From positions 2,909,501-2,973,500 of the forward strand of contig NZ_BAAAXG010000026.1 in NCBI RefSeq assembly GCF_039535475.1: a stretch of DNA of 64,000 bases, given 5' to 3'. Made by a program: the position numbers and the translations under genes. Under the pieces are notes generated by a model, which saw nothing but the letters and a program-made list of their open reading frames with translations, did not search any database and had not been told where the DNA came from. Positions 27,597 through 43,950 of this stretch are shown here, one piece after another. This stretch comes from Streptomyces showdoensis (lineage in GTDB: Bacteria; Actinomycetota; Actinomycetes; Streptomycetales; Streptomycetaceae). The stretch's first letter is position 1; every line of letters begins with the position of its first letter.

Positions 27597-27632
27597 GAAG
27601 GGGCGCCCCGCCGTTCGGCGGGGCGCCCCTTC
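27597..27632 (+). terminator. terminator of clpX
   Basis: Perfect 16-bp arms (27597-27612, 27617-27632) around a GTTC loop, 14 bp past the stop. Confidence 0.88.
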
Positions 27633-27751
27633 GTGCGTTGCACCGCGTCGCTTGGTTCAAGCCGTATCGAACAAGTGACCTTGCGGGCGTGAAGCGACCC
27701 TGTTCTGCTTGATCTTGACCAGTTCCACTCTCAAGCAACTCGGGGGAACAC

Positions 27752-28021
27752 ATGCTTCGTTCCAAGTCCGGGCGAGTCATTGCCGCACTGTCCCTGGCAG
27801 GTGTCGCGGCCATGGCGCCTGTGGCGACCGCCGCACCTGCTCAGGCCTCGCAGTTCGATTGCCAGCAGTATTTGCTCGATGTCGGCTACAAGGTCGGCGC
27901 AAAGACGAGGCAGGCGTGCAGCTACGGGGGGAGCGTCACCCACGCGGGACTCTGTTACCCGATCCTGGTGTCCATCGGGGTGAAGAGCCTCCACGCGACC
28001 ACGGCGTGCCGACTGTCCTGA
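27752..28021 (+). CDS. small secreted protein with four cysteines
   Basis: An 89-residue protein with GGGGGA 6 nt before ATG 27752. Residues 1-32 are a signal peptide (positive RSKSGR, hydrophobic [21 protein letters not shown] cleavage site). The mature 57-residue part has C37, C56, C68 and C86, enough for two disulfides. Base use at third positions is less GC-biased than neighbours (for example GATTGC, TATTTG), which may point to recent arrival or weak selection. It resembles other small Streptomyces exoproteins but I do not recognise a function. Its own terminator follows. Confidence 0.6.
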
Positions 28022-28062
28022 CGCCTCCGTCAGTGGTCGGGGCTGGTGACGCCCCGCGAACT

Positions 28063-28107
28063 CTGAGGCGTCCGGCCGGCTCTTCCGTGGCCGGCCGGAC
28101 GCCTCAG
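28063..28107. terminator. bidirectional terminator after the secreted peptide gene
   Basis: Perfect 18-bp arms (28063-28080, 28090-28107) with a 9-nt loop between convergent genes. Confidence 0.88.
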
Positions 28108-28124
28108 GGGGCGGCCTCGACCGC

Positions 28125-29087
28125 TCACGCCTTGACGCGGACTTCCTTGCGGAGCTTCGCGGTGACGGCCGCGGCGTCCTCGGCGGAACCGCCCTTGCCG
28201 GAGAGCAGGGAGGCCATGTCGACGGGGACGACGAAGCCCAGCGTGCTGTGGTCGGCCCAGGCGCACAGCGTCATGGTCATCGCGGGGGCGCCCTTGGCGG
28301 CGTCGGCCTGGGTCTTGGCCTGCTGGCACTTCAGGACCGCCCCGTCGAGGTCGGCCGGCTTGTACTCCTGCGGGCTGCCCTCCAGTTGCGGCTGGTCGCC
28401 CTGGCCCTTGTCCTTCTCGGCCTCCGCCTTGATGCCGGCGAAGAGGTCGTCGAGGACCTTCTCCGGGTCGTCGATCTCGCCGTAGAGGCCGCTGAACGAA
28501 AGGATCTTGCCCGCCAGCGGGTTGGCCTCGTTCTTCACCTCGTAGCCGGCGCTGACCTCCTTGGCGTTCTTGACGCCGGTCTTGGCCGCGTCCATCGACT
28601 TCTTGTCGCTGGAGCTCTCCTCCTTGGAGGACTTCTTGTACTCGCCGAGCACCGTCTCCGGGGTGACCAGCTTGTGCGGGCCGTCGTCCGCGACGGAGGA
28701 GCCGCCGCCCCCGCCGATCACGAAGTACGCGGCCACCGCGACGGCCGCGACCACCGCGACGCCGCCGATGATCCAGCCGGCCTTGCTCTTCTTCGGGGCC
28801 GGCGGCGGGGGCAGGTAGCCGCCGGGGCCCTGCGGGGCGCCGTACGGGGGCTGCTGGCCGTAGGGGCCGGGCTGCGGCTGGCCCTGGGGCGGGTAGCCGT
28901 ACGGCTGCTGCTGGGGCGGGACGCCCTGGGGGGCCTGCTGCGGGTAGCCGTAACCGGGCTGCGGGGCCTGCGGCGGCTGACCGTACGGGCCGGGCTGCGG
29001 CGGCTGCTGGCCGTAGGGGCCGGGCTGGCCGTACGGGCCGGGCTGCTGGGGCTGGCCGCCGTACGGGCCCGGCTGGTTGTAGCTCAT
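28125..29087 (-). CDS. Pro/Gln/Gly/Tyr-rich single-pass membrane protein
   Basis: A 320-residue protein. Residues 1-97 are low-complexity repeats of PGPYGQP/QQP type, cytoplasmic. One membrane helix (about 103-124, GWIIGGVAVVAAVAVAAYFVIG) is followed by a Gly stretch and an extracellular domain of about 190 residues with two cysteines (LKCQQ and LCAW). This is a common actinobacterial architecture for proteins of unknown function. AGGGGAA lies upstream of ATG 29087. It is divergent from valS and sits where I recall a similar hypothetical in S. coelicolor. Confidence 0.7.
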   Translation of the reverse strand: MSYNQPGPYGGQPQQPGPYGQPGPYGQQPPQPGPYGQPPQAPQPGYGYPQQAPQGVPPQQQPYGYPPQGQPQPGPYGQQPPYGAPQGPGGYLPPPPAPKKSKAGWIIGGVAVVAAVAVAAYFVIGGGGGSSVADDGPHKLVTPETVLGEYKKSSKEESSSDKKSMDAAKTGVKNAKEVSAGYEVKNEANPLAGKILSFSGLYGEIDDPEKVLDDLFAGIKAEAEKDKGQGDQPQLEGSPQEYKPADLDGAVLKCQQAKTQADAAKGAPAMTMTLCAWADHSTLGFVVPVDMASLLSGKGGSAEDAAAVTAKLRKEVRVKA

Positions 29088-29213
29088 GGACAGGTTCCCC
29101 TCACAAGATGTTTATGCGTAGCGAACATCCTGTCGGAAGCCGTGTCCCGCCGGGGCGGTGGGGGGCACACCGTTACGGAACAATCGAGTTTCAGGGACAC
29201 CCCCGGAGCCCCC

Positions 29214-29219
29214 TAAACT
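29214..29219 (+). promoter_or_regulatory. candidate -10 TAAACT of leaderless valS promoter
   Basis: TAAACT is 6 nt from the GTG start of valS at 29226, and no Shine-Dalgarno sequence is present. No T-box structure fits between it and the start. Confidence 0.55.
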
Positions 29220-29225
29220 GGGCCC

Positions 29226-31847
29226 GTGACCGAGAACACTCAGCAGCAGACAGCCGCCCCCACCGAACTGCCGACCGCGTACGCGCCGGCCGAAGTAGAG
29301 GGGCAGCTGTACGAGCGCTGGGTAGAGCGGGGCTACTTCGAGGCGGACGAGAAGAGCGACAAGCCGCCGTTCACCATCGTCATCCCGCCGCCGAACGTCA
29401 CCGGCTCGCTCCACCTGGGCCACGCCTTCGAGCACACCCTCATCGACGCCCTGACCCGCCGCAAGCGCATGCAGGGCTACGAGACGCTGTGGCAGCCGGG
29501 CATGGACCACGCCGGCATCGCCACCCAGAACGTCGTCGAGCGCGAGCTCGCCAAGGAGGGCAAGTCCCGCCACGACCTCGGCCGCGAGGCCTTCGTCGAG
29601 CGCGTCTGGAAGTGGAAGGCCGAGTCCGGCGGCCAGATCTCGGGGCAGATGAAGCGCCTCGGTGACGGCGTCGCCTGGTCCCGTGAGCGCTTCACCATGG
29701 ACGAGGGCCTCTCCCAGGCCGTCCAGACCATCTTCAAGAAGCTCTACGACGACGAGCTGATCTACCGCGCCGAGCGCATCATCAACTGGTGCCCGCGCTG
29801 TCTCACCGCGATCTCCGACATCGAGGTCGAGTACCAGGACGACGACGGCGAGCTCGTCTCCATCCGGTACGGCGAGGGCGACTCCGAGATCGTCGTCGCC
29901 ACCACCCGCGCCGAGACGATGCTGGGCGACACGGCCGTCGCCGTCCACCCGGACGACGAGCGCTACCGGCACATGATCGGCACCGAGATCGAGCTCCCGC
30001 TCACCGGCCGCCGCATCCCGATCGTCGCCGACACCCACGTCGACCCCGCGTTCGGCACCGGTGCCGTCAAGGTGACCCCGGCGCACGACCCGAACGACTT
30101 CGAGATCGGCCAGCGCCACGACCTGCCGTCGATCGCCGTCATGGACGAGCACGCGGTCATCACGGTGCACGGCCCGTTCCTCGGCCTGGACCGCCTGGAG
30201 GCCCGCTCCGCCATCGTCGCCGCGCTGCGCGCCGAGGGCCGGATCGTCGCCGAGAAGCGCCCGTACACCCACTCCGTCGGCCACTGCTCGCGCTGCAAGA
30301 CCACCATCGAGCCGCGCCTGTCGATGCAGTGGTGGGTCAAGGTCGGGCCGCTCGCGAAGGCCGCCGGTGACGCGGTCCGCGACGGCAAGGTCAAGATCCA
30401 CCCGCAGGAGATGGAGAAGCGGTACTTCGACTGGGTCGACAACCTGCACGACTGGTGCATCTCGCGCCAGCTGTGGTGGGGCCACCGCATCCCGGTCTGG
30501 TACGGCCCCAACGGCGAAGTCGTCTGCGTCGGCCCGGACGAGGAGCCGCCGAGCGGCGAGGGCTGGACCCAGGACAGCGACGTCCTGGACACCTGGTTCT
30601 CCTCCGGCCTGTGGCCGTTCTCCACGCTCGGCTGGCCCGAGCAGACCGAGAGCCTCAAGAAGTTCTATCCGAACTCCGTCCTGGTCACCGGCTACGACAT
30701 CCTCTTCTTCTGGGTCGCCCGGATGATGATGTTCGGTCTGTACGCGATGGACGGCACCCCGCCGTTCCACACCATCGCCCTGCACGGCATGGTCCGTGAC
30801 CAGAACGGCAAGAAGATGTCGAAGTCCTTCGGCAACGTGGTCAACCCGCTGGACTGGATGGACACGTACGGCTCCGACGCCGTCCGCTTCACCCTGGCCC
30901 GCGGCGCCAACCCCGGTGTCGACGTCCCGATCGGCGAGGACTGGGTCCAGGCGTCCAGCAAGTTCGCCAACAAGATCTGGAACGCCACGCGCTTCGCGCT
31001 GATGAACGGCGCGACGATCGAGGGCGAGCTGCCCGACCCGTCCGAGATGACCGCCACGGACCGCTGGATCCTGTCGCGGCTCAACGAGACGGTCGCGGAC
31101 GTCGACGCCTTCTACGACGACTACCAGTTCTCGAAGCTGTCGGACGCGCTCTACCACTTCGCGTGGGACGAGGTCTTCGACTGGTACGTCGAGCTGTCGA
31201 AGACGACCTTCTTCGCCGGCGGCGAGGGCGCGCGGGTCTCCGGCCGGGTCCTCGGCGAGGTCCTCGACGTCATGCTGCGGCTGCTGCACCCGGTGGTCCC
31301 CTTCGTCACCGAGACCCTGTGGACCACGCTCACCGGCGGCGAGTCCCTCGTCATCGCCGACTGGCCGAAGGACAGCGGCTTCCGCGACGCCGCCGCCGAG
31401 CAGGAGATCGCGCTGGTCCAGCGGGTCATCACGGAGGTCCGCCGGTTCCGCAAGGAGCAGGGCCTCCAGGACGCCCAGAAGGTGCCCGCCCGCCTCACCC
31501 TGGACGGCACCCCGCTCGCCGCGCACGAGGCCGCCATCCGGCAGATCCTGCGCCTCCAGCCGGAGGGCGAGGGCTTCGCGGCCACCGCCACCCTGCCGGT
31601 CGCCGGGGCCGAGGTCGCGCTGGACCTGTCCGGCACGATCGACGTCGCCGCGGAGCGCAAGCGTCTCGCCAAGGACCTCGCCGCCGCCGAGAAGGAGAAG
31701 GCGCAGGCCCAGGGCAAGCTGGGCAACGAGGCCTTCCTGGCCAAGGCGCCGGACAACGTGGTCGACAAGATCCGCGGCCGGCTCGCCAAGGCGGACGAGG
31801 ACATCGCCCGCATCCAGGCGCAGCTGGAGAAGCTGCCCCAGGCCTAG
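29226..31847 (+). CDS. valS: valine-tRNA ligase
   Basis: An 873-residue class I synthetase. HLGH (63-66) and KMSKS (530-534) form the catalytic site, the CP1 editing domain spans about 190-360 ([34 protein letters not shown]), and the C-terminal coiled coil (about 810-873, Lys/Ala/Glu-rich) is typical of ValRS. It charges tRNA-Val and hydrolyses Thr-tRNA-Val. The GTG start has a leaderless-type promoter. It ends at an 18-bp hairpin shared with the convergent glycosyltransferase gene. Confidence 0.98.
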
Positions 31848-31855
31848 GGACCCAT

Positions 31856-31897
31856 GCGGAAGGGCCCGGAACCACGACTGGTTCCGGGCCCTTCCGC
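31856..31897. terminator. bidirectional terminator between valS and the GT2 gene
   Basis: Perfect 18-bp arms (31856-31873, 31880-31897) with a 6-nt loop, 9 bp past the valS stop. Confidence 0.88.
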
Positions 31898-31929
31898 GTA
31901 CCCCGCCCCTCCCGGCACGTCGTCCCCGC

Positions 31930-33276
31930 TCAGGACTCCGTGGCGATGGGGCCGACCCCGGCGGTCTCGGCGTTGCGGCGGGTCTTGGCCCAGCCGGTGC
32001 GGCCGCGCAGCAGACGGACGAAGCCGCGGGCCGAGACGATGAAGAGGTGGTACGCGTACAGCCACAGCGCGAAGCCCCACAGCAGGCCCTTGAGGCGGGA
32101 GCGGTCGGGGGCGAACTCCCGCCGGTAGACCGGGCCCCACAGGAGGAAGGGCGCGATCGAGGCGAGGCCGAGCGCGAGGGCCAGCGGCCAGGCGGCGAGC
32201 AGGACCTCGGCCGCGCCGCCGCCCGTGACGAGGGCGACCAGCATGATCGCGGTCAGGACGAGGGTCGCGAGGTGGGCGATCGGCTGGAAGAAGGTGTAGA
32301 GCGACTCCATCACCCCGGACGCCTTGTAGTGGCGGGAGCCGATGATGCGGCCGGAGTAGCGGACGCACTGGATGTTGCCCTGGGCCCAGCGGGTGCGCTG
32401 GGTGAGGAAGCGGCGGGTGTAGGGCAGCGCCTCCTGGGAGACCCAGGTGTCGGCGACGTGGGTGACGCGGTAGCCGGCCAGCCGCATGTGCAGGCCGAGT
32501 TCGTAGTCCTCCAGGAGGGCGTCCTGCTGCCAGGGGCGGCGCTCGGCGGCGGCGATGCGGTCGAGCGCGGTGAGCCGGGTGAACTGGCCGTTGCCGCCCA
32601 GGCCGACCGAGCCCGTGCGGCGGCGCAGCAGCTGCATCCCGGTGTTGGAGACGGCGAACTCGGCGTCCTGCATGCGGATCAGCAGCCGGGCGTACGCGTT
32701 GGCGGCCCGGCCGCGGTCGGGCAGCGGCCGCTCGTCGTCGACGTTGCGCATGCGGACGCCGATCTGGACCCCGCCCATGTCGGGGTCGGCGAACGCGTCG
32801 GGGCCGCTGACGTGTGCGAGGGCGTTCGGGGAGACCTGGCCGTCGGCGTCGACGACGCAGACGACCACGCGGGCGCGGTCGGCGTGCCCGCCGAGGTGCG
32901 CGTTCAGGGCGTCGTAGGCGGAGTTGAGGGCCGCGCCCTTGCCGATGCGGGCGTCGGGGCGGCGCCGGGACACCAGGTGGACCTTCGGGTCCCGCTCGGC
33001 GAGCGCGGTGACGATCGGCGCGGTGAGGTCGTCGCTGGCGTCGTCGATGACCCACACGTGGGAGCCGGTGAAGTCGGCCCGCAGCCGGGCGACCGTGGTC
33101 GCGATGACGGCCTCCTCGTCACGGCAGGGGACGAAGAAGTGCCAGTCGAACGCGGTGGGGTCGCCGGTCTCGGCGGGCTCGCGGCGCGCGTAGGCGTGCC
33201 GGGCACCGGCCCAGTAGACCAGGAAGCCGCCGAGCAGCAGGAACGGGAAGGCGTAGAGCAGGAGGTGGAGGCTCAA
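31930..33276 (-). CDS. processive-type glycosyltransferase family 2 (BcsA/chitin/hyaluronan synthase-like)
   Basis: A 448-residue membrane glycosyltransferase. One N-terminal helix (1-24) precedes a GT-A domain with VIDDASDD (D78/D79), DAD (143-145), LLEDYELG (E256-D257) and QRTRW (293-297), the full set for processive GT2 enzymes. Three to four C-terminal helices follow (from about 325). It should polymerise a nucleotide-sugar at the membrane. The gene upstream encodes WecB (UDP-GlcNAc 2-epimerase), 97 bp away in the same direction, so UDP-ManNAc or UDP-GlcNAc is a plausible donor. Product unknown. Confidence 0.85.
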   Translation of the reverse strand: MSLHLLLYAFPFLLLGGFLVYWAGARHAYARREPAETGDPTAFDWHFFVPCRDEEAVIATTVARLRADFTGSHVWVIDDASDDLTAPIVTALAERDPKVHLVSRRRPDARIGKGAALNSAYDALNAHLGGHADRARVVVCVVDADGQVSPNALAHVSGPDAFADPDMGGVQIGVRMRNVDDERPLPDRGRAANAYARLLIRMQDAEFAVSNTGMQLLRRRTGSVGLGGNGQFTRLTALDRIAAAERRPWQQDALLEDYELGLHMRLAGYRVTHVADTWVSQEALPYTRRFLTQRTRWAQGNIQCVRYSGRIIGSRHYKASGVMESLYTFFQPIAHLATLVLTAIMLVALVTGGGAAEVLLAAWPLALALGLASIAPFLLWGPVYRREFAPDRSRLKGLLWGFALWLYAYHLFIVSARGFVRLLRGRTGWAKTRRNAETAGVGPIATES

Positions 33277-33373
33277 GGGGGTCTCCGGGGGTGTGGCGGG
33301 AGGGGAGCGGGCGGAGGCGGCCGCCCGCCGGGGTGTGGCGGGGCGGGGCCTGCGGGGCGGCCCGGGGCGTCGG

Positions 33374-34513
33374 TCAGGCGGCCAGCGCGGGGGAGCGGTG
33401 GGCGGTCCGCTCCTCGGCCAGTTCCGCGATGAGGCCCGCGATGCGGCGGGAGGCGGTGCCGTCGCCGTACGGGCTGGGGAGGTTCGCGAGGCGGTGCAGG
33501 CCCGGGGCGCCCTCGGAGAGGCGGCGGCGGGCGGCGGTCCCGATCTGCGGGCCGGGGTCGACCAGCTCGGCGAAGTCGGCGAGCGACTCGGGGCGCTCGG
33601 TGGAGTTGCGGACGACGACCAGCGGCCGGCCGAGGACGGTGGTCTCCTCCTGCACGCCTCCGGAGTCCGAGACGATCAGGGCCGCGTGCCGGGCCAGCGC
33701 CAGGAAGGTGCCGTAGCCGGCCGGGGGCAGCACGGTCACGCCGTCGAGCAGCGGCAGCAGCCCGGCGGCCTCGATGCGGGCCCGGGTGCGCGGGTGCAGC
33801 GGCAGCACGACCGGCAGCTCGCGGGCGAGACCGGCGAGCTCGTGGAGGACGGCGGTGAGCGCGAGCTCGTCGTCGGTGTTCTCGGGGCGGTGCACGGTCG
33901 CCAGCACGTAGCGGTCGGCGTCGAGGCCGTGCGCGGCGAGCAGCCGGGCGCGCTCCGCCGCCGCCGGCAGGTGGTCGCGCACGGCCTCGACGACCGGGTT
34001 GCCGGTGACGGCGATCCGCTCGTCCGGTACGCCCTCGGCGAGCAGCAGCTCGCGGTTGTCGGGGGTGGCCGCGCACAGCACGTCGGCGAGGCGGTCGATG
34101 AGGACCCGGTTGTGCTCCTCGGGCATGGCCCGGTCGTGGCTGCGCAGCCCCGCCTCGACGTGCACCAGGGGCAGGTCGCGGGCGTTGGCGGCGAGGGCGC
34201 CGGCCAGGGCCGCGTTGGTGTCGCCCTGGACGACGACGGCGAGCGGCGGCTCGGCGGCGAAGAGCGCGTCCAGACCCTGCAGCGCGGCGGCGATCTGGAC
34301 GGCCCTCGGCTGCCCGCCGACGCCGGTCAGGTACGCGGGCTCGGGCAGGCCGAGCTCGGCGAGGAAACCGCCGGAGAGCTCCTCGTCGTAGTGCTGCCCG
34401 GTGTGGACGACACGGGCGGCGGGGCCGAGGACGCGGATCAGCTCGGCCAGCTTGACCAGCTCGGGGCGGGTACCGAGCACGACGACGACACTGCGGGCAG
34501 GAAGGGTCTTCAT
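33374..34513 (-). CDS. wecB: UDP-N-acetylglucosamine 2-epimerase (non-hydrolysing)
   Basis: A 379-residue WecB-type epimerase that converts UDP-GlcNAc to UDP-ManNAc. Motifs: VVLGTRPELVKLAEL at the N-terminus, HTGQHYDEELS, VVQGDTNAALAGALAA, HVEAGLRSHDRAMPEEHNR, ATVHRPENTDD and ISDSGGVQEE-type VSDSGGVQEETTVLG. ATG 34513 has GGAAG close upstream; a longer frame runs back into the intergenic region. No WecC dehydrogenase is adjacent, so the product sugar stays ManNAc unless oxidised elsewhere. It lies between a two-component pair and a processive GT2. Three ACGGTYGC repeats sit 20-61 bp upstream. Confidence 0.92.
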   Translation of the reverse strand: MKTLPARSVVVVLGTRPELVKLAELIRVLGPAARVVHTGQHYDEELSGGFLAELGLPEPAYLTGVGGQPRAVQIAAALQGLDALFAAEPPLAVVVQGDTNAALAGALAANARDLPLVHVEAGLRSHDRAMPEEHNRVLIDRLADVLCAATPDNRELLLAEGVPDERIAVTGNPVVEAVRDHLPAAAERARLLAAHGLDADRYVLATVHRPENTDDELALTAVLHELAGLARELPVVLPLHPRTRARIEAAGLLPLLDGVTVLPPAGYGTFLALARHAALIVSDSGGVQEETTVLGRPLVVVRNSTERPESLADFAELVDPGPQIGTAARRRLSEGAPGLHRLANLPSPYGDGTASRRIAGLIAELAEERTAHRSPALAA

Positions 34514-34532
34514 GCTTCCAGGCTGCGGGCCG

Positions 34533-34574
34533 ACGGTCGCGCGCTGAGGTGGCGCACGGTTGCCCGACGGTTGC
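34533..34574 (-). promoter_or_regulatory. three-copy ACGGTYGC direct repeat, OmpR-family operator candidate
   Basis: ACGGTTGC occurs at 34556-34563 and 34567-34574, exactly 11 bp apart, and ACGGTCGC at 34533-34540 (23 bp before the first). Direct repeats at an 11-bp period are the usual target of OmpR/PhoB-type regulators. One such regulator is encoded just upstream (34644-35330). The array is 20-61 bp upstream of the wecB start, in the promoter zone. Confidence 0.6.
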
Positions 34575-34643
34575 GATGGGCCCGCGGCGGGGAGCTCGGG
34601 ACGTACGGCCGGGACTTCCGTCCCTGGCGGGTGGTGTTCCTCG

Positions 34644-35330
34644 TCACCCGGAGCTCTCGTAACGGTAGCCCATGCCCCGGACCGCCTCGATGGGGTCGCG
34701 GACCTGTGGGCCGGCCGAGGCACGCAGCTTACGCCGCAGCCGGAGCACCGCGAACTTCACGCGGTCGCGGCCGATCGCCGTGGTGTCGTCCCAGACCTGG
34801 TCGAGGAGCTGCTCGGTGGTGACGACCCGGCCCCGGTTGCGGACCAGGAGCTGGAGCAGCCGGTACTCGATGTCGCTGAGCCGGATCTCGCCGCCGTGCC
34901 AGAGCGCGGAGCGGCGCTCGGGGACCAGCCGCAGGTCCTCCTCGACGGGTTCGCCGGCCCAGCGGCCGGGGCCCGAGCGGCGCAGCAGGGCCTCGACGCG
35001 GGCCAGCAGTTCGGCCTGGGCGAAGGGTTTGACCAGGTAGTCGTCGGCGCCGGAGCGCAGCCCGCGCACCCGGTCGTCGACGGCGCCGAGCCCGGACAGG
35101 ACGAGGACCGGCACGTCGGACATGTCCCGGGTCCGGTCGAGCACCTGCCAGCCGTCGAGCCCGGGCAGCAGCAGGTCGAGCACCATCAGCGAGGGGTGCT
35201 CGGCGAAGAGCAGCCGCAGGGCCTCGCGGCCGTCGGCGGCGAGCGAGACCTCGTAGCCGCGGCGGCCGAGGAGGACGCGCAGGGCGAGCGAGAGGTCGGG
35301 GTCGTCCTCGACGACGAGCAGCCGGGTCAT
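34644..35330 (-). CDS. OmpR/PhoB-family response regulator
   Basis: A 228-residue regulator. The receiver domain has acidic E8/D9/D10, phospho-acceptor D52 (LMVLDLLLPG), S79 and K101. The C-terminal winged helix (about 135-228) has IRLSDIEYRLLQLLVRNRGRVVTTEQLLDQVWDD and RDPIEAVRGMGYRYE. ATG 35330 overlaps the kinase stop by 4 bases, so the pair is coupled. Direct repeats before wecB are its likely target. No known named orthologue is assigned. Confidence 0.93.
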   Translation of the reverse strand: MTRLLVVEDDPDLSLALRVLLGRRGYEVSLAADGREALRLLFAEHPSLMVLDLLLPGLDGWQVLDRTRDMSDVPVLVLSGLGAVDDRVRGLRSGADDYLVKPFAQAELLARVEALLRRSGPGRWAGEPVEEDLRLVPERRSALWHGGEIRLSDIEYRLLQLLVRNRGRVVTTEQLLDQVWDDTTAIGRDRVKFAVLRLRRKLRASAGPQVRDPIEAVRGMGYRYESSG

Positions 35331-36577
35331 CCGGCGGCCCCGTGCCCCGGCGCGCCTCCGTCCCCGGCGGTACCGCGTCGCGCCGCGGGACCGTCCCCGG
35401 CGGCCCCGCGCCCCGGCCCGCCCCCGTCCCCCGAGGCCCCGCGCCCCGGCGCGCCTCCGTCCCCCACCGGCAGCCGCACCGTGAAGACCGCGCCCGGGCG
35501 GTTCTCGCGGTCGCGGACCGTGAGGGTGCCGCCGTGCAGGCGGACCGCGTCCAGGGCGCTCGCCAGGCCGAGGCCGGTGCCGGGGAAGCCGCCGCGGCGC
35601 GCGTTGGGGGCCCGGACGAACGGGGTGAAGATCTCCTCCTGGTACTCCAGCGGGACGCCGATGCCGGTGTCCCTGACCTGGATGGTCCAGTGCTCGCCGT
35701 CCGTCCGGCCGACGATCTCGACCCGCCCGTCCTCGGGGGTGTACCGCAGCGCGTTGGCCACCAGCTCCTCCAGGGCCCCGGTCAGCAGGTGCGCGTCGGC
35801 GACCAGCGGCGGGCCGTCGGCCGGGCAGTCGGCGGCGAGGTACGGGCCGGCGCCGCCGGAGCGCTGGAGGGCCTCCAGGGTGACCCGCTCGATCAGCTCG
35901 TGGACCGCGAGCGACGAGGGGTGCGGCGGGGCCGGGGGCGTGCCGGCGGCCGCGTTCGGCAGGTTCTCGGCGACGAGCTGCATCCGGCGCGCGTTGCGGT
36001 GGATGGCGTCGACGAACGCGGCCTGTTCGGGGTCGAGGGGGCCGCCCGCGGGCTCCAGGAGCAGTTCGGCGAAGCTCAGCACGGTCGCCAGCGGGGTGCG
36101 CAGCTCGTGCAGGACGCGGCCGGCGAACGCGGCCCGCTCGTCGGCGAGCGCCGCGAGCTTCCGGACCTGCTCGTACATGTCCTCCTCGGCCTCGTGCTGC
36201 CGGGTGACGTCCTCGATCAGCCACAGGTGCCCGAAGAACCCGTCGCCGTGGCCGACCGGGGTACGGCGACGGCGCAGCGTCCGTCCGTCGCCGAGGTGGT
36301 AGTCGGCGATCCGGGTGACGGGCGCGCGGGTCCGGGCCTCCTCCAGGAAGCGGCGCCGCTCCTCCGGGCGGTCGAGCATCCCGGCGACGTGGTCGAGCAG
36401 CAGGTCCCGGGGGGTGCCGGGGGAGAGGTCGAGCCCCTCGGGCAGCCGGAGCAGTCCGGCGAGGCGGCGGTTCACCCGGACGATCCGCAGTTCGCGGTCG
36501 ACGAGCATGGCCGCCTGGGGGAGGGCGTCGAGCACGGCGCCGGCCAGCGACAGCTGCTCCTGGGATGCTTCGTACAC
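35327..36577 (-). CDS. soluble PAS-domain sensor histidine kinase
   Basis: A 416-residue kinase without membrane helices. A PAS domain (about 12-130, LPQAAMLVDRELRIVRVNRRLAGLL) is followed by HisKA with H157 (VLHELRTPLATVLSF) and HATPase_c with N-box N275 (EELVANALRYTPEDG), G1 box D303 (VRDTGIGV) and G2 GGFPGTGLGLA. Residues 373-416 are a Gly/Ala/Pro-rich repetitive tail (GDGGAPGRGAS, GDGGGPGRGAA and variants). It presumably phosphorylates the OmpR-type regulator that overlaps its 3' end. It senses an intracellular signal; ligand unknown. Confidence 0.9.
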   Translation of the reverse strand: MYEASQEQLSLAGAVLDALPQAAMLVDRELRIVRVNRRLAGLLRLPEGLDLSPGTPRDLLLDHVAGMLDRPEERRRFLEEARTRAPVTRIADYHLGDGRTLRRRRTPVGHGDGFFGHLWLIEDVTRQHEAEEDMYEQVRKLAALADERAAFAGRVLHELRTPLATVLSFAELLLEPAGGPLDPEQAAFVDAIHRNARRMQLVAENLPNAAAGTPPAPPHPSSLAVHELIERVTLEALQRSGGAGPYLAADCPADGPPLVADAHLLTGALEELVANALRYTPEDGRVEIVGRTDGEHWTIQVRDTGIGVPLEYQEEIFTPFVRAPNARRGGFPGTGLGLASALDAVRLHGGTLTVRDRENRPGAVFTVRLPVGDGGAPGRGASGDGGGPGRGAAGDGPAARRGTAGDGGAPGHGAAG

Positions 36578-36667
36578 ATTTCAGAGTCAAACAGCAATCT
36601 GGGCGAAGTGCCCGATCTCACAGCAGACGGGACTTCAGGTCCACGGCGACGGGACGAAGGACCCTGG

Positions 36668-37822
36668 ATGATGGAAGGCATGCTCCGCCTCCCCGCCCTC
36701 CCCGCGCTGCGCCGCTGTGCGGACCGGTGGGCCGTGTCGCCGCGGGCCATGGACGTCGTCGCCGCGGTCAGCGCCTTCGGCCTGATGGTCCTGGACGTGC
36801 CGGGACTCGCCCGTGCCGACAACTCGCTCACCGGCGTCACCGCGACCCTCGTCCTCGCGGCCGGCGCGGCCACCCTCGTGCTGCGCCGCAGGGCGCCGTG
36901 GGTGCCGTTCGTGGTCGCGCTGTTCCTGATGGGCTGGCTGCACGAGCTGACGATGGTCCAGTTCGCGCTGTACTCGCTCGGCCGCTTCCGGGGCCGGCGG
37001 GCGGCCGTGCTGGCGACCCTGCTGTACGTGGCCGCCTCCTACGTCCTGTTCAACCTGCCCGGCTGGCCCGCCAAGCACGGCGAGACCCTCAGCGAGTTCC
37101 TGGGCCTGGTCGTCCCGATCGGCGCCCTGGCCGCGGGGGTCGGCATCGCCGCGTACCGCCAGGACCTCGTCCTCGCCCTCCAGGTCCAGCGCAGCGAGTC
37201 CGCGGCCCGGCAGGCCGTCCAGGAGGAGCGGATCTCGGTCGGCCGGGACGTCCACGACCTGGTGGGCCGGGAGCTGACCGTGCTCGCCGTGCGGGCCGAG
37301 GTGCTGGCCGTGCGGGCCCGGGGGGACGCGCACCAGAAGGACTTCGAGGAGCTCGCCGACACCGCCCGGCGCGCCCACCACATGCTCAACGAGACCATCG
37401 TGCGGCGCGCCGACGGGGCCGCCGCCACGCCCGGCCTCGAAGGGCTCGCCGCGCTGGCCGAGGAGAGCGAGCGGATGGGCAGCCCGGTGGACCTGACGGT
37501 CGCCCAGGAGGCGAAGGCGCTCTCGCCGCTGCGGCAGACGGCGGTGCACCGGGTGGTGCAGGAGTGCCTGACGAACGCGGCCAAGCACGCCCCCGGCCTG
37601 CCGGTGACCGTCTCGATCACGGTCGAGGGCCGGGACCTGCGCGTCGAGGTCCGCAACCCGCTGCCCAAGTCGCCGCCGGACCGCGCGCCCGTCTCGACCG
37701 GCACCGGACTCTTCTCCATGGAGGAGCGGGTCACCAGCATGGGCGGCTCGCTGCGGGCCGGCCGCGAGCACGGCGCGTACGTGGTGACGGCACTGCTCCC
37801 GACGGGCTTCGGCCACCGCTGA
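36668..37822 (+). CDS. orphan NarL-type (HisKA_3) membrane sensor kinase
   Basis: A 384-residue kinase with about five N-terminal membrane segments (residues 28-165). The DHp helix carries H196 in ERISVGRDVHDLVGREL, the HisKA_3 form. The N-box VVQECLTNAAKHA is intact and a G2-like STGTGLFSMEERV is present. The G1 DxGxG box is missing: the equivalent place reads LRVEVRNPLPKSPPD. No response regulator gene is adjacent (next gene is the minus-strand MreB paralog), so its partner is elsewhere or absent. AAGG lies upstream of ATG 36668; ATG 36671 is an alternative. Confidence 0.82.
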   Translation: MMEGMLRLPALPALRRCADRWAVSPRAMDVVAAVSAFGLMVLDVPGLARADNSLTGVTATLVLAAGAATLVLRRRAPWVPFVVALFLMGWLHELTMVQFALYSLGRFRGRRAAVLATLLYVAASYVLFNLPGWPAKHGETLSEFLGLVVPIGALAAGVGIAAYRQDLVLALQVQRSESAARQAVQEERISVGRDVHDLVGRELTVLAVRAEVLAVRARGDAHQKDFEELADTARRAHHMLNETIVRRADGAAATPGLEGLAALAEESERMGSPVDLTVAQEAKALSPLRQTAVHRVVQECLTNAAKHAPGLPVTVSITVEGRDLRVEVRNPLPKSPPDRAPVSTGTGLFSMEERVTSMGGSLRAGREHGAYVVTALLPTGFGHR

Positions 37823-37939
37823 CCCCGGGTCGGGGCCAGTCGGCGACCCCGGCAGGGCGCGGCCGCCGGGAGCCCCCTCGCCCCGGGGTACCTGCGTGGG
37901 CCGTGTCTTCCGGATCAGGCCCGATCCGAAGGACACGGC

Positions 37940-38962
37940 CTAGCGGACCACCTCCGCCTTCCCCAGCACCCGCTGGAGCGCGTCGAAGTCCTCCACGCAG
38001 CGGCCCGAGCCCAGGGCCACGCAGTCCAGCGGGTCGTCGGCGACGAAGACCGGGATGCCGGTCGCCGAGGCCAGGCGCAGGTCCAGGCCGGGGAGCAGGG
38101 CGCCGCCGCCGGTGAGGACGATGCCGTGTTCCATGACGTCGCCGGACAGCTCGGGCGGGCACTCCTCCAGGGTGACCCGGACCGCCGCGATGATCGCCTC
38201 CACCGGCTCGTCGAGCGCGGCCCGCACCTCCGGCACGGTCAGCTCGACCGTGCGCGGCAGCCCGCTGACCTTCTCGCGGCCCCGCACGGTGAAGGTGGAG
38301 CGCTCGAACTCCTCGCCGCCCGGCACCGGCCAGGCCGAGCCGATGGCGATCTTGATGTCCTCGGAGGTCCGCTCGCCGACCAGCAGCGAGTGCTCCTTGC
38401 GCACGAAGTCCGCGATGGCGGTGTCCAGCCGGTCGCCGCCCACCCGCAGGGACTGGGCCGTGACGATCCCGCCGAGCGAGATGACGGCCACCTCGGTCGT
38501 GCCGCCGCCGATGTCGACGACCATCGAGCCGCGCGGGTCCGAGACCGGCAGCCCCGCGCCGATCGCCGCCGCCATCGGCTCCTCGATGAGGTGGACCGCC
38601 CGCGCGCCCGCCGAGCGCGAGGCGTGCACGATGGCCCGCCGCTCGACCGGGGTCACGCCGCTCGGCACGCACACCACCATCCGGGTGCGCGGGCGCCGGC
38701 GCCCGGGGACGGCCTTGCGCACGAAGTGCCGGATCATCTCCTCGGCCGCCTCGTAGTCGCTGATCACGCCGTCCCGCAGCGGGCGGATCGCGGTGATCGA
38801 ACCGGGCGTGCGGCCGATGGTCTCCTTCGCCTCCGCACCGACCGCGAGCGCCGTCCGCGAGCCGGCCTGGACCGCCACCACGGACGGTTCGTTGAGGACG
38901 ATGCCCTGGCCCCGGGCGTAGAGGAGGGTGTTGGCCGTGCCGAGGTCGATGCCTATGTCCAT
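37940..38962 (-). CDS. mbl: MreB-like actin homologue (Mbl type)
   Basis: A 340-residue bacterial actin, paralog of MreB at 41720-42739. Motifs: phosphate-1 [16 protein letters not shown], connect-1, phosphate-2 [18 protein letters not shown], adenosine [15 protein letters not shown]. It keeps the MreB fold but diverges in surface segments (for example WPVPGGEEFERSTFTV). In S. coelicolor, Mbl is encoded away from the mre cluster (SCO2451, from memory) and acts in spore-wall synthesis; here the paralog lies 0.1 kb from folC and 2.8 kb from mreB, on the opposite strand. ATG 38962 lacks a clear ribosome site. Confidence 0.85.
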   Translation of the reverse strand: MDIGIDLGTANTLLYARGQGIVLNEPSVVAVQAGSRTALAVGAEAKETIGRTPGSITAIRPLRDGVISDYEAAEEMIRHFVRKAVPGRRRPRTRMVVCVPSGVTPVERRAIVHASRSAGARAVHLIEEPMAAAIGAGLPVSDPRGSMVVDIGGGTTEVAVISLGGIVTAQSLRVGGDRLDTAIADFVRKEHSLLVGERTSEDIKIAIGSAWPVPGGEEFERSTFTVRGREKVSGLPRTVELTVPEVRAALDEPVEAIIAAVRVTLEECPPELSGDVMEHGIVLTGGGALLPGLDLRLASATGIPVFVADDPLDCVALGSGRCVEDFDALQRVLGKAEVVR

Positions 38963-39050
38963 GATCGCCAAGTTTGCCCGGCCGGCCGGGCGGGCGGCGG
39001 GCCGAAAGTCCCGAATGGGGTGGGTCCAATGTCCTGTCGGCCCCCCTCCG

Positions 39051-39056
39051 TAGACT
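39051..39056 (+). promoter_or_regulatory. candidate -10 TAGACT of leaderless folC promoter
   Basis: TAGACT is 6 nt from the folC GTG at 39063 with no ribosome site. The promoter lies in the 100-bp divergent gap with the MreB paralog. Confidence 0.6.
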
Positions 39057-39062
39057 GGGGGC

Positions 39063-40580
39063 GTGAGTGAGCCGAGCGACCGCAGCGACCAGTTCGACGA
39101 CAGCGAGCAGTTCCACGACATCGTCGATGCCGAGACCGACCGGGACCCGGACCTGGCGGTGATCGAGGCCGGCAGCCGCACCCTGCGCGCGATGTCCGGC
39201 CCGCCGCAGGGCGACCCCGTCCCCTCCCGCCCGCTCGACCCCGAGGTCGACAAGGCGCTGCGGGACGTGGAGACCGAGCTGTCGACCCGTTGGGGCGAGA
39301 CCAAGCTGGAGCCCTCGGTCACCCGGATCGCGGCCCTGATGGACGTGCTCGGCGAGCCGCAGCGCGCCTACCCCTCCATCCACATCACCGGCACCAACGG
39401 CAAGACCTCGACCGCCCGCATGATCGAGGCCCTGCTCGGCGCCTTCGACCTGCGCACCGGGCGGTACACCTCGCCGCACGTGCAGACCATCACCGAGCGG
39501 ATCAGCCTGGACGGCGCCCCGATCGAGGCCGAGCGCTTCGTCGAGACGTACCGCGACATCAAGCCGTACGTGGAGCTGGTGGACGCCCGCGAGGAGTACC
39601 GCCTCTCCTTCTTCGAGGTCCTCACCGGCATGGCGTACGCGGCCTTCGCCGACGCCCCGGTCGACGTGGCCGTCGTCGAGGTCGGCATGGGCGGCACCTG
39701 GGACGCCACCAACGTGATCGACGGCTCCGTCGCCGTCGTCACCCCCATCGACCTGGACCACACCGACCGGCTCGGCGACACCACGGGTGCCATCGCCGGC
39801 GAGAAGTCCGGGATCATCAAGCCGGACGCCACGGTCATCCTGGCCCAGCAGCCGGTGGACGCGGCCCAGGTGCTCCTGAAGAAGGCCGTCGAGGTCGACG
39901 CGACCGTGGCCCGCGAGGGCATGGAGTTCGGCATCGTCTCCCGCGAGGTGGCGGTCGGCGGCCAGCTGCTGACCCTGCGCGGCCTGGGCGGCGAGTACGA
40001 CAACGTGTTCCTGCCGCTGTACGGCGCGCACCAGGCGCACAACGCGGCCGTGGCGCTCGCCGCCGTCGAGGCCTTCTTCGGCATCGGCTCCCAGCACGCC
40101 CGCACCCTGGACCTCGACACGGTCCGCCGGGCCTTCGCCCAGGTGGCCTCGCCGGGCCGCCTGGAGGTCGTGCGCTCCTCGCCGACGGTCATCCTGGACG
40201 CCGCGCACAACCCGCACGGCGCCCGGGCCACCGCCGACGGCATCACCGAGTCCTTCGGCTTCTCCCGGCTGATCGGCGTGGTCTCCACCAGCGGGGACAA
40301 GGACGCTCGCGGTCTCCTGGAGGCCTTCGAGCCGATCTTCGCGGAGGTCGTGGTCACGGCGAACTCCAACCCCCGGGCCACCGACGTCGACGCGCTCGCC
40401 GCGATCGCGGTGGAGGTCTTCGGCGAGGACCGCGTGGTCGTCGAGCCGCGGCTGGACGACGCCCTGGAGGCGGCGATCACGCTCGCCGAGGAGCACGAGG
40501 AGTTCTCCGGCGCGGGTGTCCTCGTGACCGGATCGATCTTCACGGTCGGCGACGCCCGGCTGCTGCTGAAGAGGGGCTGA
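39063..40580 (+). CDS. folC: folylpolyglutamate synthase / dihydrofolate synthase
   Basis: A 505-residue Mur-ligase-family enzyme that adds glutamate to dihydropteroate and folates. An acidic N-terminal extension (about 60 residues, DQFDDSEQFHDIVDAETDRD) precedes the core. Motifs: P-loop HITGTNGKTST (108-117), GRYTSPHVQTITERI, DVAVVEVGMGGTWDATNVI, the omega-type KSGIIKP and LDAAHNPHGARATAD. GTG 39063 follows a leaderless-type -10. It is followed after 3 bp by the DUF4233 gene. Confidence 0.96.
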   Translation: MSEPSDRSDQFDDSEQFHDIVDAETDRDPDLAVIEAGSRTLRAMSGPPQGDPVPSRPLDPEVDKALRDVETELSTRWGETKLEPSVTRIAALMDVLGEPQRAYPSIHITGTNGKTSTARMIEALLGAFDLRTGRYTSPHVQTITERISLDGAPIEAERFVETYRDIKPYVELVDAREEYRLSFFEVLTGMAYAAFADAPVDVAVVEVGMGGTWDATNVIDGSVAVVTPIDLDHTDRLGDTTGAIAGEKSGIIKPDATVILAQQPVDAAQVLLKKAVEVDATVAREGMEFGIVSREVAVGGQLLTLRGLGGEYDNVFLPLYGAHQAHNAAVALAAVEAFFGIGSQHARTLDLDTVRRAFAQVASPGRLEVVRSSPTVILDAAHNPHGARATADGITESFGFSRLIGVVSTSGDKDARGLLEAFEPIFAEVVVTANSNPRATDVDALAAIAVEVFGEDRVVVEPRLDDALEAAITLAEEHEEFSGAGVLVTGSIFTVGDARLLLKRG

Positions 40581-40583
40581 CCG

Positions 40584-40940
40584 ATGCGCGTGCTCTGCTC
40601 CTCGACCCTGATCGGCGAGTTCTTCGTGATCGGTTTCGCCGGTCTGGTGGCCATGAAGGACGACTCCCTGGAGATGTCCACGGTCTGGACGGTCTGCGGG
40701 ATCGCCATGGTCCTGTCGGTGCTGCTGTGCGGGATGATCACCCGTCCGGGCGGCGTGCAGCTCGGCTGGGTCCTCCAGCTGGGCCTGGTCGCCAGCGGTT
40801 TCTTCGTGCCGGTGATGTTCTTCCTCGGCGCGGTCTTCGCCGTGCTGTGGTGGGCGTCGGTGCACTACGGCCGGAAGATCGACGAGATCAAGGCGGGCTG
40901 GGCCGCCCGCGAAGGCTCCGCAGGGCCTGACGCTGCGTGA
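40584..40940 (+). CDS. DUF4233 membrane protein
   Basis: A 118-residue protein with four hydrophobic segments (FFVIGFAGLVAM; WTVCGIAMVLSVLLCGMI; LQLGLVASGFFVPVMFFLGAVFAVLWW). The position directly after folC and before ndk is the constant setting of DUF4233 (M. tuberculosis Rv2446c). It is probably cotranslated with folC (3-bp gap). Function unknown. It ends before a U-tract terminator. Confidence 0.85.
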   Translation: MRVLCSSTLIGEFFVIGFAGLVAMKDDSLEMSTVWTVCGIAMVLSVLLCGMITRPGGVQLGWVLQLGLVASGFFVPVMFFLGAVFAVLWWASVHYGRKIDEIKAGWAAREGSAGPDAA

Positions 40941-40947
40941 TCGCGGC

Positions 40948-40987
40948 CGGTGCGGGCCCTGTAGCCTTCAAGGCCCGCACCGTTTTT
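40948..40987 (+). terminator. intrinsic terminator of folC-DUF4233 with a candidate ndk -10 in its loop
   Basis: An 11-bp stem (40948-40958 with 40972-40982) is followed directly by TTTTT (40983-40987), one of only two U-tract terminators in the window. TAGCCT (40962-40967) lies in the 13-nt loop and could be the -10 of ndk. Confidence 0.75.
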
Positions 40988-41003
40988 CCGAAGGAGTTCC
41001 CCC

Positions 41004-41417
41004 GTGAGCCAGCGCACGCTCGTCCTGCTCAAGCCCGACGCCGTCCGCCGTGGCCTGGTCGGTGAGATCATCGGTCGCATCGAGCGCAAGGCCGGCTGGA
41101 CCCTCGCGGCCCTGGAGCTCCGCACGCTGGACCAGGAGACGCTGGAGCAGCACTACGGCGAGCACAAGGGCAAGCCCTTCTACGAGCCGCTGATGGGCTT
41201 CATGGCCTCCGGCCCGGTCGTCGCGCTCGTCGTCGAGGGCGAGCGGGTCATCGAGGGGCTGCGCACGCTGGCCGGCCCGACCGACCCGATCGCCGCCGCC
41301 CCCGGCTCCATCCGCGGCGACTTCGGCACCATCGTGCGCGAGAACCTCATCCACGCCTCGGACTCCGAGGAGTCCGCCGACCGCGAGCTGAAGATCTTCT
41401 TCCCGGGTCTCGTCTGA
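41004..41417 (+). CDS. ndk: nucleoside diphosphate kinase
   Basis: A 137-residue NDK that equilibrates nucleoside triphosphates through a phospho-histidine, H117 (ENLIHASDS). RTLVLLKPDAVRRGLVGEII and GPTDP complete the signature. GTG 41004 has AAGGAG 7 nt upstream. It is isolated by the preceding terminator and a following hairpin, so it should be transcribed alone. Confidence 0.97.
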   Translation: MSQRTLVLLKPDAVRRGLVGEIIGRIERKAGWTLAALELRTLDQETLEQHYGEHKGKPFYEPLMGFMASGPVVALVVEGERVIEGLRTLAGPTDPIAAAPGSIRGDFGTIVRENLIHASDSEESADRELKIFFPGLV

Positions 41418-41468
41418 CCCCCCTCGCTCTCCCGTTGATCCCGCGTCAGCCGATCAGCGCCACGCCCT

Positions 41469-41497
41469 GGGGCGACCGAAGGAATTTCGGTCGCCCC
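41469..41497 (+). terminator. terminator of ndk
   Basis: Perfect 12-bp arms (41469-41480, 41486-41497) around a 5-nt loop; the pairing continues outward with one bulge. It lies 50 bp past the ndk stop. Confidence 0.8.
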
Positions 41498-41520
41498 CAG
41501 GCATATGAACACCAATCCCG

Positions 41521-41546
41521 GGAACGGATCGCCGCGTCCTACCGTC
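41521..41546 (+). promoter_or_regulatory. SigE-type (ECF, envelope stress) promoter GGAAC-N17-CGTC before mreB
   Basis: GGAAC (41521-41525) and CGTC (41543-41546) are 17 bp apart, fitting the Streptomyces SigE consensus (GGAAC, 15-17 bp, CGTC). It would start an mRNA with a leader of about 165 nt to the mreB ATG. The remaining 41547-41719 holds no gene; TACGAT at 41602 may be another -10. Confidence 0.5.
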
Positions 41547-41719
41547 ACCTATACAGAGGTGGGCAGAGGCGGTCCGCCGCGCGGTATCCGGGCGGGCGGC
41601 ACTACGATGGAAAACTCCACGCCGTACCATCCTCAGCCACCACCTCGCCGACCTGAGAAGCCGTCAACGCTCCGCTAGGGAAGGCCCGACGCATCCTCAT
41701 GGGAAACAAGGGGAACTCA

Positions 41720-42739
41720 ATGTCGTTCATCGGCCGTGACATGGCTGTCGACCTCGGGACCGCCAACACGCTGGTGTACGTCAGGGGTCGCGGCATCGTT
41801 CTGAACGAGCCGTCCGTCGTCGCGATCAACACCAACACCGGCGGCATCCTCGCGGTGGGTGCCGAGGCGAAGAAGATGATCGGCCGGACGCCCGGCAACA
41901 TCGTCGCCGTCCGCCCGCTCAAGGACGGCGTGATCGCCGACTTCGAGATCACGGAGCGGATGCTCCGCTACTTCATCCTCAAGATCCACAAGCGCCGCTA
42001 CCTGGCCCGCCCCCGGGTCGTCGTCTGCGTCCCCTCCGGCATCACCGGAGTCGAGCGCCGCGCCGTCATCGAGGCCTCCACCCAGGCCGGCGCCCGCCAG
42101 GTGCACATCATCGAGGAGCCCATGGCCGCCGCCATCGGCTCGGGCCTCCCGGTCCACGAGGCCACCGGCAACATGGTGGTCGACATCGGCGGCGGCACCA
42201 CCGAGGTCGCCGTCATCTCCCTCGGCGGAATCGTCACGGCACAGTCCATCCGGGTCGCCGGCGACGAGCTCGACAACGCGATCATCCAGCACATCAAGAA
42301 GGAGTACTCGCTCCTCCTCGGTGAGCGCACCGCCGAGCAGATCAAGATCACCATCGGCTCCGCCTACGACCTCGACCAGGACGAGCACACCGAGATCCGC
42401 GGCCGTGACCTCGTCTCGGGCCTCCCCAAGACCGTCGTCATCTCCGCCGCCGAGGTCCGCAAGGCCATCGAGGAGCCGGTCAACGCGATCGTCGACGCGG
42501 TGAAGACCACGCTCGACAAGTGCCCGCCGGAGCTCTCCGGTGACGTCATGGACCGCGGCATCGTTCTCACCGGTGGCGGCGCCCTGCTCCGCGGGCTCGA
42601 CGAGCGGCTGCGCCGTGAGACCGGGATGCCGATCCACATCGCCGAGGACCCGCTGGACTCGGTGGCGCTCGGCTCCGGCAAGTGCGTCGAGGAGTTCGAG
42701 GCCCTCCAGCAGGTCCTCGACGCCCAGCCGCGCCGCTGA
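41720..42739 (+). CDS. mreB: rod shape-determining protein MreB
   Basis: A 339-residue actin homologue. ATG 41720 is preferred because AAGGGGAA lies 4 nt upstream; ATG 41699 has no ribosome site. Phosphate-1 [15 protein letters not shown], phosphate-2 [19 protein letters not shown] and adenosine [16 protein letters not shown] are present. In Streptomyces, MreB directs sporulation-septum and spore-wall thickening rather than vegetative elongation. First gene of the mreB-mreC-mreD-mrdA-rodA cluster. Confidence 0.97.
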
Positions 42740-42861
42740 ACCGGCCCGACACGACCGGCCCCTGAGGCCGGCACCCACAACTCCATCCGACCCCCGGGCC
42801 TCCGGGCCCGGGGGCGCGTCACACCCCCCGTACCAATCGAGGAAGGGCACGGCCGCCGCAC

Positions 42862-43950
42862 GTGAGGGACACACGAGAGAGCCGGCTGCTCCTGGTGCTG
42901 CTGATCGCCATCGCGTTCGCACTGATCACGGTGGACATCCGAGGAGGCCAGGAGTCGCCGGTCGACGGTGCCCGACAGGCCGCGGCCGCGGTCTTCGGTC
43001 CCGTCGAGAACGGAGTCGCCTCGGCGGTCGACCCGATCGGCAACGCCATAGGAGCGGTCCGCGACTCAGGGGAACGGCACAACCGCATCGCCGCCCTGGA
43101 GCAGGAGAACGCCGCCCTCAAGGCCAGGCTGGGCAGCGACGACCGCAACCGCAACCGGCTGCGCGAGCTCGACGCCATGCTGAAGACCGCCGGCGCCGGC
43201 CAGTACGGCATCAAGGGCGCCGAGGTCATCGCCATAGGAGCCGCCCAGGGCTTCTCCTGGACCGTCACCATCGACGTCGGCGCCCGCGACGGCATCCGCC
43301 GCGACATGACCGTCCTCAACGGCTCCGGACTCGTCGGCCGGGTCACCACCGTCGGCCCCTCCACCTCCACGGTCCTGCTGGCCAACGACCCCGACTTCAC
43401 CGTCGGCACCCGCATGGAGAAGACCGACGAACTCGGCTTCGCCACCGGCCAGGGCGACCGCCCGCTCCTCGTCCAGCTGCTCAACGGCAAGGCCAAGGTC
43501 AACAAGGGCGACCGGCTCGTCACCTTCGGCTCCCAGGCCGACAAGCCCTTCGTGCCCGGCGTGCCCGTCGGCGAGGTGGTCCGCGTCGACCCCGCGGGCG
43601 GCGGCCTCACCCGCAACGTCTACGTCCGCCCGTACGTCGGCTTCACCAAGCTCGACATCGTCGGCGTCGTCGTCCAGGCCCCGCGCAGCGACCCGCGCGA
43701 CATGGTGCTGCCGCAGAAGCCCAAGCCCGCCCCGACCGTCACCGTCACGGTCACCCCGCCGCCGCCGGACGGACAGCAGGCCGGCCGGCAGCAGGGCGAG
43801 GCCCAGCAGAAGCCCGACGGGCAGGCGGCCGACCGGCAGACGCCGGACGGCCAGGCGGCCGACCGTCAGAAGCCCGACGGGCAGGCGGCCGACCAGCCGA
43901 ACCAGCAGGCGGACCAGCAGCCGCAGGACCAGGGGGACGCAACACCGTGA
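42862..43950 (+). CDS. mreC: rod shape-determining protein MreC
   Basis: A 362-residue MreC. One N-terminal helix (LLLVLLIAIAFALITVDI), a coiled-coil (about 70-110, HNRIAALEQENAALKARL) and the beta-domain pair (about 120-280) are followed by an unstructured Pro/Gln/Asp tail (residues 285-362). The tail contains three KPDGQAADRQ-type decapeptide repeats (43810-43899). It scaffolds PBP2/RodA from outside the membrane. Its GTG is 120 bp after mreB, and the stop overlaps the mreD GTG. Confidence 0.93.
   Translation: MRDTRESRLLLVLLIAIAFALITVDIRGGQESPVDGARQAAAAVFGPVENGVASAVDPIGNAIGAVRDSGERHNRIAALEQENAALKARLGSDDRNRNRLRELDAMLKTAGAGQYGIKGAEVIAIGAAQGFSWTVTIDVGARDGIRRDMTVLNGSGLVGRVTTVGPSTSTVLLANDPDFTVGTRMEKTDELGFATGQGDRPLLVQLLNGKAKVNKGDRLVTFGSQADKPFVPGVPVGEVVRVDPAGGGLTRNVYVRPYVGFTKLDIVGVVVQAPRSDPRDMVLPQKPKPAPTVTVTVTPPPPDGQQAGRQQGEAQQKPDGQAADRQTPDGQAADRQKPDGQAADQPNQQADQQPQDQGDATP
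43810..43899 (+). repeat. three 30-bp tandem repeats in the mreC 3' end
   Basis: Units 43810-43839, 43840-43869 and 43870-43899 encode KPDGQAADRQ, TPDGQAADRQ and KPDGQAADQP. They are in frame and lengthen the disordered tail. Confidence 0.9.

Follow-up and report, generated by a model that had tools for sequence, protein, structure and literature searches.

A candidate two-component-controlled glycan-synthesis cassette between valS and folC of Streptomyces showdoensis

Genes and enzymes of the cassette

The window analyzed here is a 64,000-nucleotide (nt) stretch of the 8.5-Mb genome of Streptomyces showdoensis (contig NZ_BAAAXG010000026.1, positions 2,909,501 to 2,973,500 of the forward strand), and our subject is the interval between its valS and folC genes. 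The interval holds two modules. The minus-strand module A runs from a sensor kinase (HK) through a response regulator (RR) and the 2-epimerase gene wecB to a family-2 glycosyltransferase (GT2); module B comprises an orphan kinase and a paralog of the actin MreB. Family scans assigned all six genes, and both the positions and the identities given in the original prediction, which was made from the letters alone, are borne out. The four genes of module A are an accessory cassette, which is on balance probably a self-contained, signal-controlled system for glycan synthesis:

31930-33276, minus strand: GT2, membrane family-2 glycosyltransferase (PF13641, NF053846)
33374-34513, minus strand: wecB, non-hydrolyzing UDP-N-acetylglucosamine (UDP-GlcNAc) 2-epimerase type (PF02350, TIGR00236), start ATG at 34513
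34644-35330, minus strand: RR, response regulator of the OmpR/PhoB type (receiver and winged-helix DNA-binding domains)
35327-36577, minus strand: HK, PAS-HisKA-HATPase kinase

For comparison, we used the best 80 of 201 relatives of GT2 in a genome collection (hereafter, the named loci), the closest of which belong to Streptomyces. GT2 scored 675.6 bits against NF053846, a model named "XrtP-associated glycosyltransferase" (cut-off, 520), and retains the motifs IDD, DADG, LEDYE, and QRTRW; DD, DxD, ED, and QxxRW-type motifs are marks of processive GT2 polysaccharide synthases. It matches the cellulose/hyaluronan-synthase fold over nearly its full length, with its membrane helices within the shared fold, at 12 to 19% identity to the solved chains of BcsA and hyaluronan synthase. 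The cassette thus resembles BcsA, hyaluronan synthase, and PgaC in the fold and the QxxRW-type motif of its synthase, but differs from them in having no second synthase subunit and in carrying its own 2-epimerase and regulator pair. WecB scored 274.6 bits against TIGR00236 (cut-off, 210.15). Its closest solved chains are UDP-2,3-diacetamido-glucuronate 2-epimerases (254.7 bits), followed by the UDP-GlcNAc 2-epimerase 4neq (219.3 bits). The catalytic Asp, Glu, Glu, and His, whose roles in 2-epimerases are described in PMC11464976, were placed by eye in its motifs QGDT, VEAGLRS, PEEHNR, and TVHRPEN. Fold, motifs, and family scores therefore concur with the earlier proposal of a polysaccharide-synthase-like membrane GT2 served by an epimerase of its own. 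The product is most likely an N-acetylmannosamine (ManNAc)-containing surface polymer, the sugar being suggested by the epimerase.

A membrane protein with weak GT-C-type matches is encoded directly after GT2 at L034:11517-12680 and at 24 further loci; its structure model is poor (predicted local distance difference test score, 51.9), and this neighbor is absent from the window. It bears on a possible, if doubtful, alternative, in which GT2 is not a polymerase and loads a single sugar (e.g., ManNAc) onto polyprenyl-phosphate or another lipid, from which a GT-C-type enzyme transfers it to wall glycans or proteins. Against this stand the conserved QRTRW motif and the match to hyaluronan and cellulose synthases along almost the whole chain, together with the lack of a GT-C gene beside GT2 in the window and the weakness of the matches and of the model elsewhere.

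HK and RR carry their phospho-acceptor motifs and the domains of a two-component pair (HisKA plus HATPase, and receiver plus winged helix, respectively), and their genes share a 4-bp overlap, seen both in the window and at 44 of the 46 loci with the exact gene order HK>RR>WecB>GT2. No membrane segment was predicted in HK, and 47 of 48 homologues were likewise below the threshold, so that HK does not look like an envelope sensor. It is also the fastest-diverging protein of the cassette, with a mean pairwise identity of 0.54 (0.46 in the PAS region) against 0.77 to 0.78 for RR, WecB, and GT2. As the PAS region diverges fastest, the signal input may differ among species.

The region upstream of wecB

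RR and wecB are separated by 130 bp in the window and by 81 to 594 nt (median, 171) over 53 loci with RR before wecB. The gap in the window contains the direct repeat GCAACCGTCGGGCAACCG, whose step is 11 bp, and comprises the following candidate elements:

34534-34573, minus strand: four tandem half-sites, GCAACCG-like, in steps of 11, 11, and 12; proposed RR binding site (half-site 1, 34573-34568; half-site 2, 34562-34557; half-site 3, 34551-34546, weak; half-site 4, 34539-34534)
34520-34525, minus strand: -10-like hexamer CAGCCT (xAnnnT) of the candidate wecB promoter, located 6 nt ahead of the start codon

Thirty strict tandems were used to derive a matrix, and of 50 upstream regions (the window and 49 loci), 47 scored above the 99th percentile of shuffled sequence; the test is partly circular, since the matrix had been derived from 30 of these regions. 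A later scoring of four held-out loci (called gap, >400 bp) gave 26.4 to 33.1 bits; each of them carries the box, and the total comes to 51 of 54 loci with RR upstream of wecB, window included. In the three loci without a box, the RR shares only 43% (L049), 39% (L094), and 35% (L099) identity with that of the window. When the alignment was reduced to 17 rows that differ in their flanks, conservation was 76 to 100% in the core columns of half-sites 1, 2, and 4, 41 to 94% in half-site 3, and 35 to 70% in the upstream flanking columns. Counted from the first half-site, the hexamer xAnnnT occupies +48 to +53 in all 47 aligned rows, whereas no other offset between +40 and +129 has it in more than 7 of them; of the held-out loci, three have it at +48 and L072 one base away. 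A spacing of 8 nt separates the last half-site from the -10 element, and no conserved -35-like element was seen. In the clade of the window and in L027 to L030 (S. griseus among them), the start codon follows the hexamer by only 6 to 7 nt, which suggests a leaderless wecB mRNA. No RNA structure was detected in the RR-wecB gap (z, -0.56).

The box follows the regulator. Upstream of wecB and GT2, none was found in 27 loci without a window-type RR (the three misses included), where scores reached at most 6.0; this top value belongs to L088, whose RR is 55% identical and located downstream. Two accepted boxes score in the weak range (L030, 5.2; L028, 7.9), with the hexamer in place in both. Among the 14 loci fetched first, several of which share a genome with a named locus and are thus not independent, 13 scored at least 11.8; L012 (RR 48% identical) has a weak box (14.0), and L014 (43%) has none. 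The exact tandem occurs once in the genome of the window, at wecB, and 15 times over eight GT2-bearing genomes, seven of these at wecB (a mismatch in its box leaves G015 without an exact match). A reversed control pattern matched twice in the own genome and five times over all eight, which puts the eight matches away from wecB at about chance level. A wider regulon was considered and rejected: four of these eight matches lie upstream of a correctly oriented gene, and no kind of gene recurs.

We conclude that wecB has a probable dedicated promoter between RR and itself. The original prediction of the four genes as a sole transcript gains no support, given the variable RR-wecB gaps with a promoter-like site inside. 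A dedicated switch is preferred over one long operon because the box tracks the orthologous RR and the exact tandem is unique in the genome. The two-component control that had also been proposed gains from the RR-linked box within the candidate promoter. PhoB-type activated promoters have repeats adjoining the -10 element and no conserved -35-like element in their layout. The wecB region resembles PhoB/OmpR-type promoters in its 11-bp-spaced direct repeats just upstream of -10, and is unlike them in the GCAACCG box, its four units, and a range of probably few or only one target promoter.

An unlikely alternative is that RR represses or merely modulates wecB-GT2, with the main switch elsewhere, or that the box serves another OmpR-type regulator. 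In favor of this alternative, 7 of the 53 loci with RR before wecB have no adjacent HK. Half-sites ending 8 nt before a -10 element that has no -35-like partner are nevertheless the layout of a PhoB-type activated promoter, and the box and the orthologous RR are gained and lost jointly, both of which argue against this alternative.

Distribution of the cassette and its neighbors

GT2 exceeded the curated cut-off in only 16 of 199 genomes of the genus, the window genome counted, in agreement with the accessory status proposed earlier. Both valS and folC were searched in 131 genus genomes, 127 of which have them on one contig (in the other four, the genes are split across contigs in three, and one has no folC match). 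The gap between them is below 400 bp in 80 of the 127, so that the block of about 7 kb does interrupt genes that are normally adjacent; it measures 400 to 999 bp in 2 and at least 1 kb in 45. This comparison across sequenced Streptomyces, called for at the outset, also favors an accessory cassette, as GT2 is present in just 8 of the 45 long intervals; the MreB paralog is present in 19, both are present in 2, and neither in 20. The site therefore accepts other cargo too and is a general insertion site. Intervals of the last type (G086, G089, G103, and G094, among others) reach 16 kb.

Among the named loci, the exact order HK>RR>WecB>GT2 is found in 46 of 80 (38 at valS-folC and 8 elsewhere), and 7 more have RR>WecB>GT2 without an adjacent HK. 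WecB is close to GT2 in 76/80; the exceptions are L036, L050, and L085, where the contig ends at GT2 or close to it, and L092, which looks degraded. In this last locus (S. omiyaensis), no wecB was found near GT2, HK and RR matches remain, and GT2 has a long branch and a match that begins only at residue 80; perhaps the cassette is decaying there. Pairwise divergences of the four cassette proteins correlate at r values of 0.89 to 0.94 (48 loci, window included). In the 36 loci with valS and folC, r was 0.93 to 0.97 within the cassette, 0.84 to 0.92 against folC, and 0.68 to 0.71 against valS; the correlation is not specific to the cassette, since folC is also high, and much of it therefore reflects vertical descent at the site.

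The wecB-GT2 pair extends beyond the two-component system. It occurs in reversed order, without HK or RR, in 12 Kitasatospora-type loci at valS-folC, and one regulator-less pair lies at another site in Embleya. A quick tree of 81 GT2 rows needs four changes for the site label, and on that account the pair looks like a long-standing resident of the valS-folC site. A secreted-looking 511-residue protein, which might act on the glycan, is encoded after WecB at L075:12732-14267 and at eight further Kitasatospora-type loci. A 212-residue membrane-type protein (L031:5964-6602 and seven further loci) is encoded between the orphan kinase and HK in seven cases and after HK in L099.

A second WecB lies beside a WecG/TagA-family gene on another contig of the same genome (G000:C27:263673-266687; L113). 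Its neighbors, judged by eye, are chain-length-type and flippase-like, and this is a separate glycan cluster. It lends some color to the notion that the cassette serves only to raise UDP-ManNAc, or to use it, for a linkage unit of the ordinary wall-teichoic type. We regard this as very improbable, as the WecG/TagA locus has its own epimerase already and the cassette epimerase accompanies a synthase-fold GT2 in 76 of the 80 loci.

The remainder of the interval, with its flanking genes, is as follows:

29226-31847, plus strand: valS
31854-31899, between the convergent valS and GT2: 21-bp hairpin, bidirectional terminator-like (-45.4 kcal/mol; z, -9.2)
36668-37822, plus strand: orphan kinase, HisKA_3/HATPase, divergent from HK
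37894-37944, between the convergent orphan kinase and MreB paralog: hairpin, bidirectional terminator-like (-36.8 kcal/mol; z, -6.5)
37940-38962, minus strand: MreB paralog, MreB_Mbl family
39063-40580, plus strand: folC

The orphan kinase, with five predicted membrane segments, is a separate module. The MreB paralog scored 460.6 bits against TIGR00904 (cut-off, 365.75) and shares 66% identity with the window's other MreB; we counted as orthologues matches of at least 68% identity to the query, which excluded three at 66 to 67%. Among the matches listed, an orthologue is present in 32 of 199 genomes and coincides with GT2 in 5 (Fisher P = 0.15). Of the 19 long valS-folC intervals that hold it, 17 are in genomes without GT2, and two further genomes with long intervals carry it elsewhere. 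Ten of the 80 named GT2 loci have the paralog, always with the orphan kinase, which itself occurs in 15. Three of the 32 copies (G059, G161, and G085) have one in-frame stop each, suggesting that some species can dispense with this actin. The MreB paralog was accordingly rejected as a cassette member and is probably a separate resident of the site; the earlier placement of the actin within the polymer system gains no support, given the few shared genomes and the hairpin of its own. That the whole block of about 7 kb, orphan kinase and actin included, forms one surface-polymer and morphogenesis system is the least credible alternative, for the shared chromosomal site and the ten named loci with both module B genes near GT2 are outweighed by the distributions just given, by the hairpin and convergent orientation that set the MreB gene apart, and by the lack of a box near it (there is one matrix match in window positions 24001-44000).

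Exosortase-linked relatives and the proposed glycan

No exosortase was found in the genome of the window with NF012139, PF09721, or TIGR04178. The XrtP model NF012139 matched 1 of 199 genus genomes, below its cut-off, and TIGR04178 (E ≤ 0.1) matched only G008 among the 16 GT2-bearing genus genomes, leaving 15 without a match; the GT2 of G008 is 44% identical and adjoins the exosortase. GT2 and WecB accompany an exosortase in 8/80 named loci (Microbacterium and Candidatus Ruania), of which L091 and L100 were counted by their exosortase-like neighbor cluster, and these eight GT2 rows form a single supported group in the 81-row tree. In eight further GT2 stretches from the class, a loose protein comparison placed an exosortase beside GT2 in G463 and G504, both outside the genus, and in G457, within it (GT2 40% identical), and found none in the other five. 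At 5 of 12 exosortase loci, a neighboring protein has the kind of C terminus that sorted cargo might have (short motif, membrane segment, arginines); a crude test recognized no such pattern at the other seven. As both exosortase loci and HK-RR loci carry wecB-GT2, the pair appears to have alternative partners, a sorting enzyme or a two-component switch. The Streptomyces cassette is like the NF053846/exosortase P loci in its above-cut-off GT2 and accompanying WecB, and unlike them in its two-component control and in the lack of an exosortase in 15 of the 16 GT2-bearing genus genomes.

In the mechanism that we favor for the cassette, the soluble PAS kinase HK would sense a signal, probably intracellular, and phosphorylate RR. 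On strong comparative evidence, RR would then bind the four half-sites near -10 and activate wecB-GT2. Judging from its family and residues, WecB would convert UDP-GlcNAc to UDP-ManNAc, from which GT2 would build, and probably extrude, a ManNAc-containing polymer.

More tentatively, the cassette may make an undescribed mannosaminan under a private two-component switch, and the same enzyme pair may supply the glycan for exosortase-sorted proteins in Microbacterium and relatives, Streptomyces having kept the glycan and dropped the sorting enzyme. This joint proposal, which we hold as no firmer than a working possibility, includes a homo- or heteropolymer of ManNAc that one cellulose-synthase-like enzyme alone would form, with UDP-ManNAc as its direct substrate, and, with equal reserve, sorted surface proteins attached to or embedded in that glycan.

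Streptomyces matrix polymers made by MatAB and CslA are named in PMC6629963. Like them, the proposed product would be a surface glycan of hyphae. The MatAB and CslA genes and their site differ from those of the cassette, which is an accessory set with an epimerase and a two-component system of its own. Among the papers listed on exosortases, ManNAc walls, 2-epimerases, or valS/folC of Streptomyces and actinobacteria, we recognized no account of the cassette, in a survey with subscription journals mostly outside its scope. New here are the probable dedicated wecB promoter, the split into two modules, the removal of the actin, and the placement of GT2 in an exosortase-named family. The predicted operator, promoter, and start site make both the signal and the product of this two-enzyme glycan system testable, and a GT2 named for exosortase P yet separated from an exosortase offers a route to learning the glycan of exosortase systems.

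Finally, proline-rich PGPYGQ-type proteins are encoded next to valS (28125-29087 in the window), in 0 to 5 copies depending on the locus.

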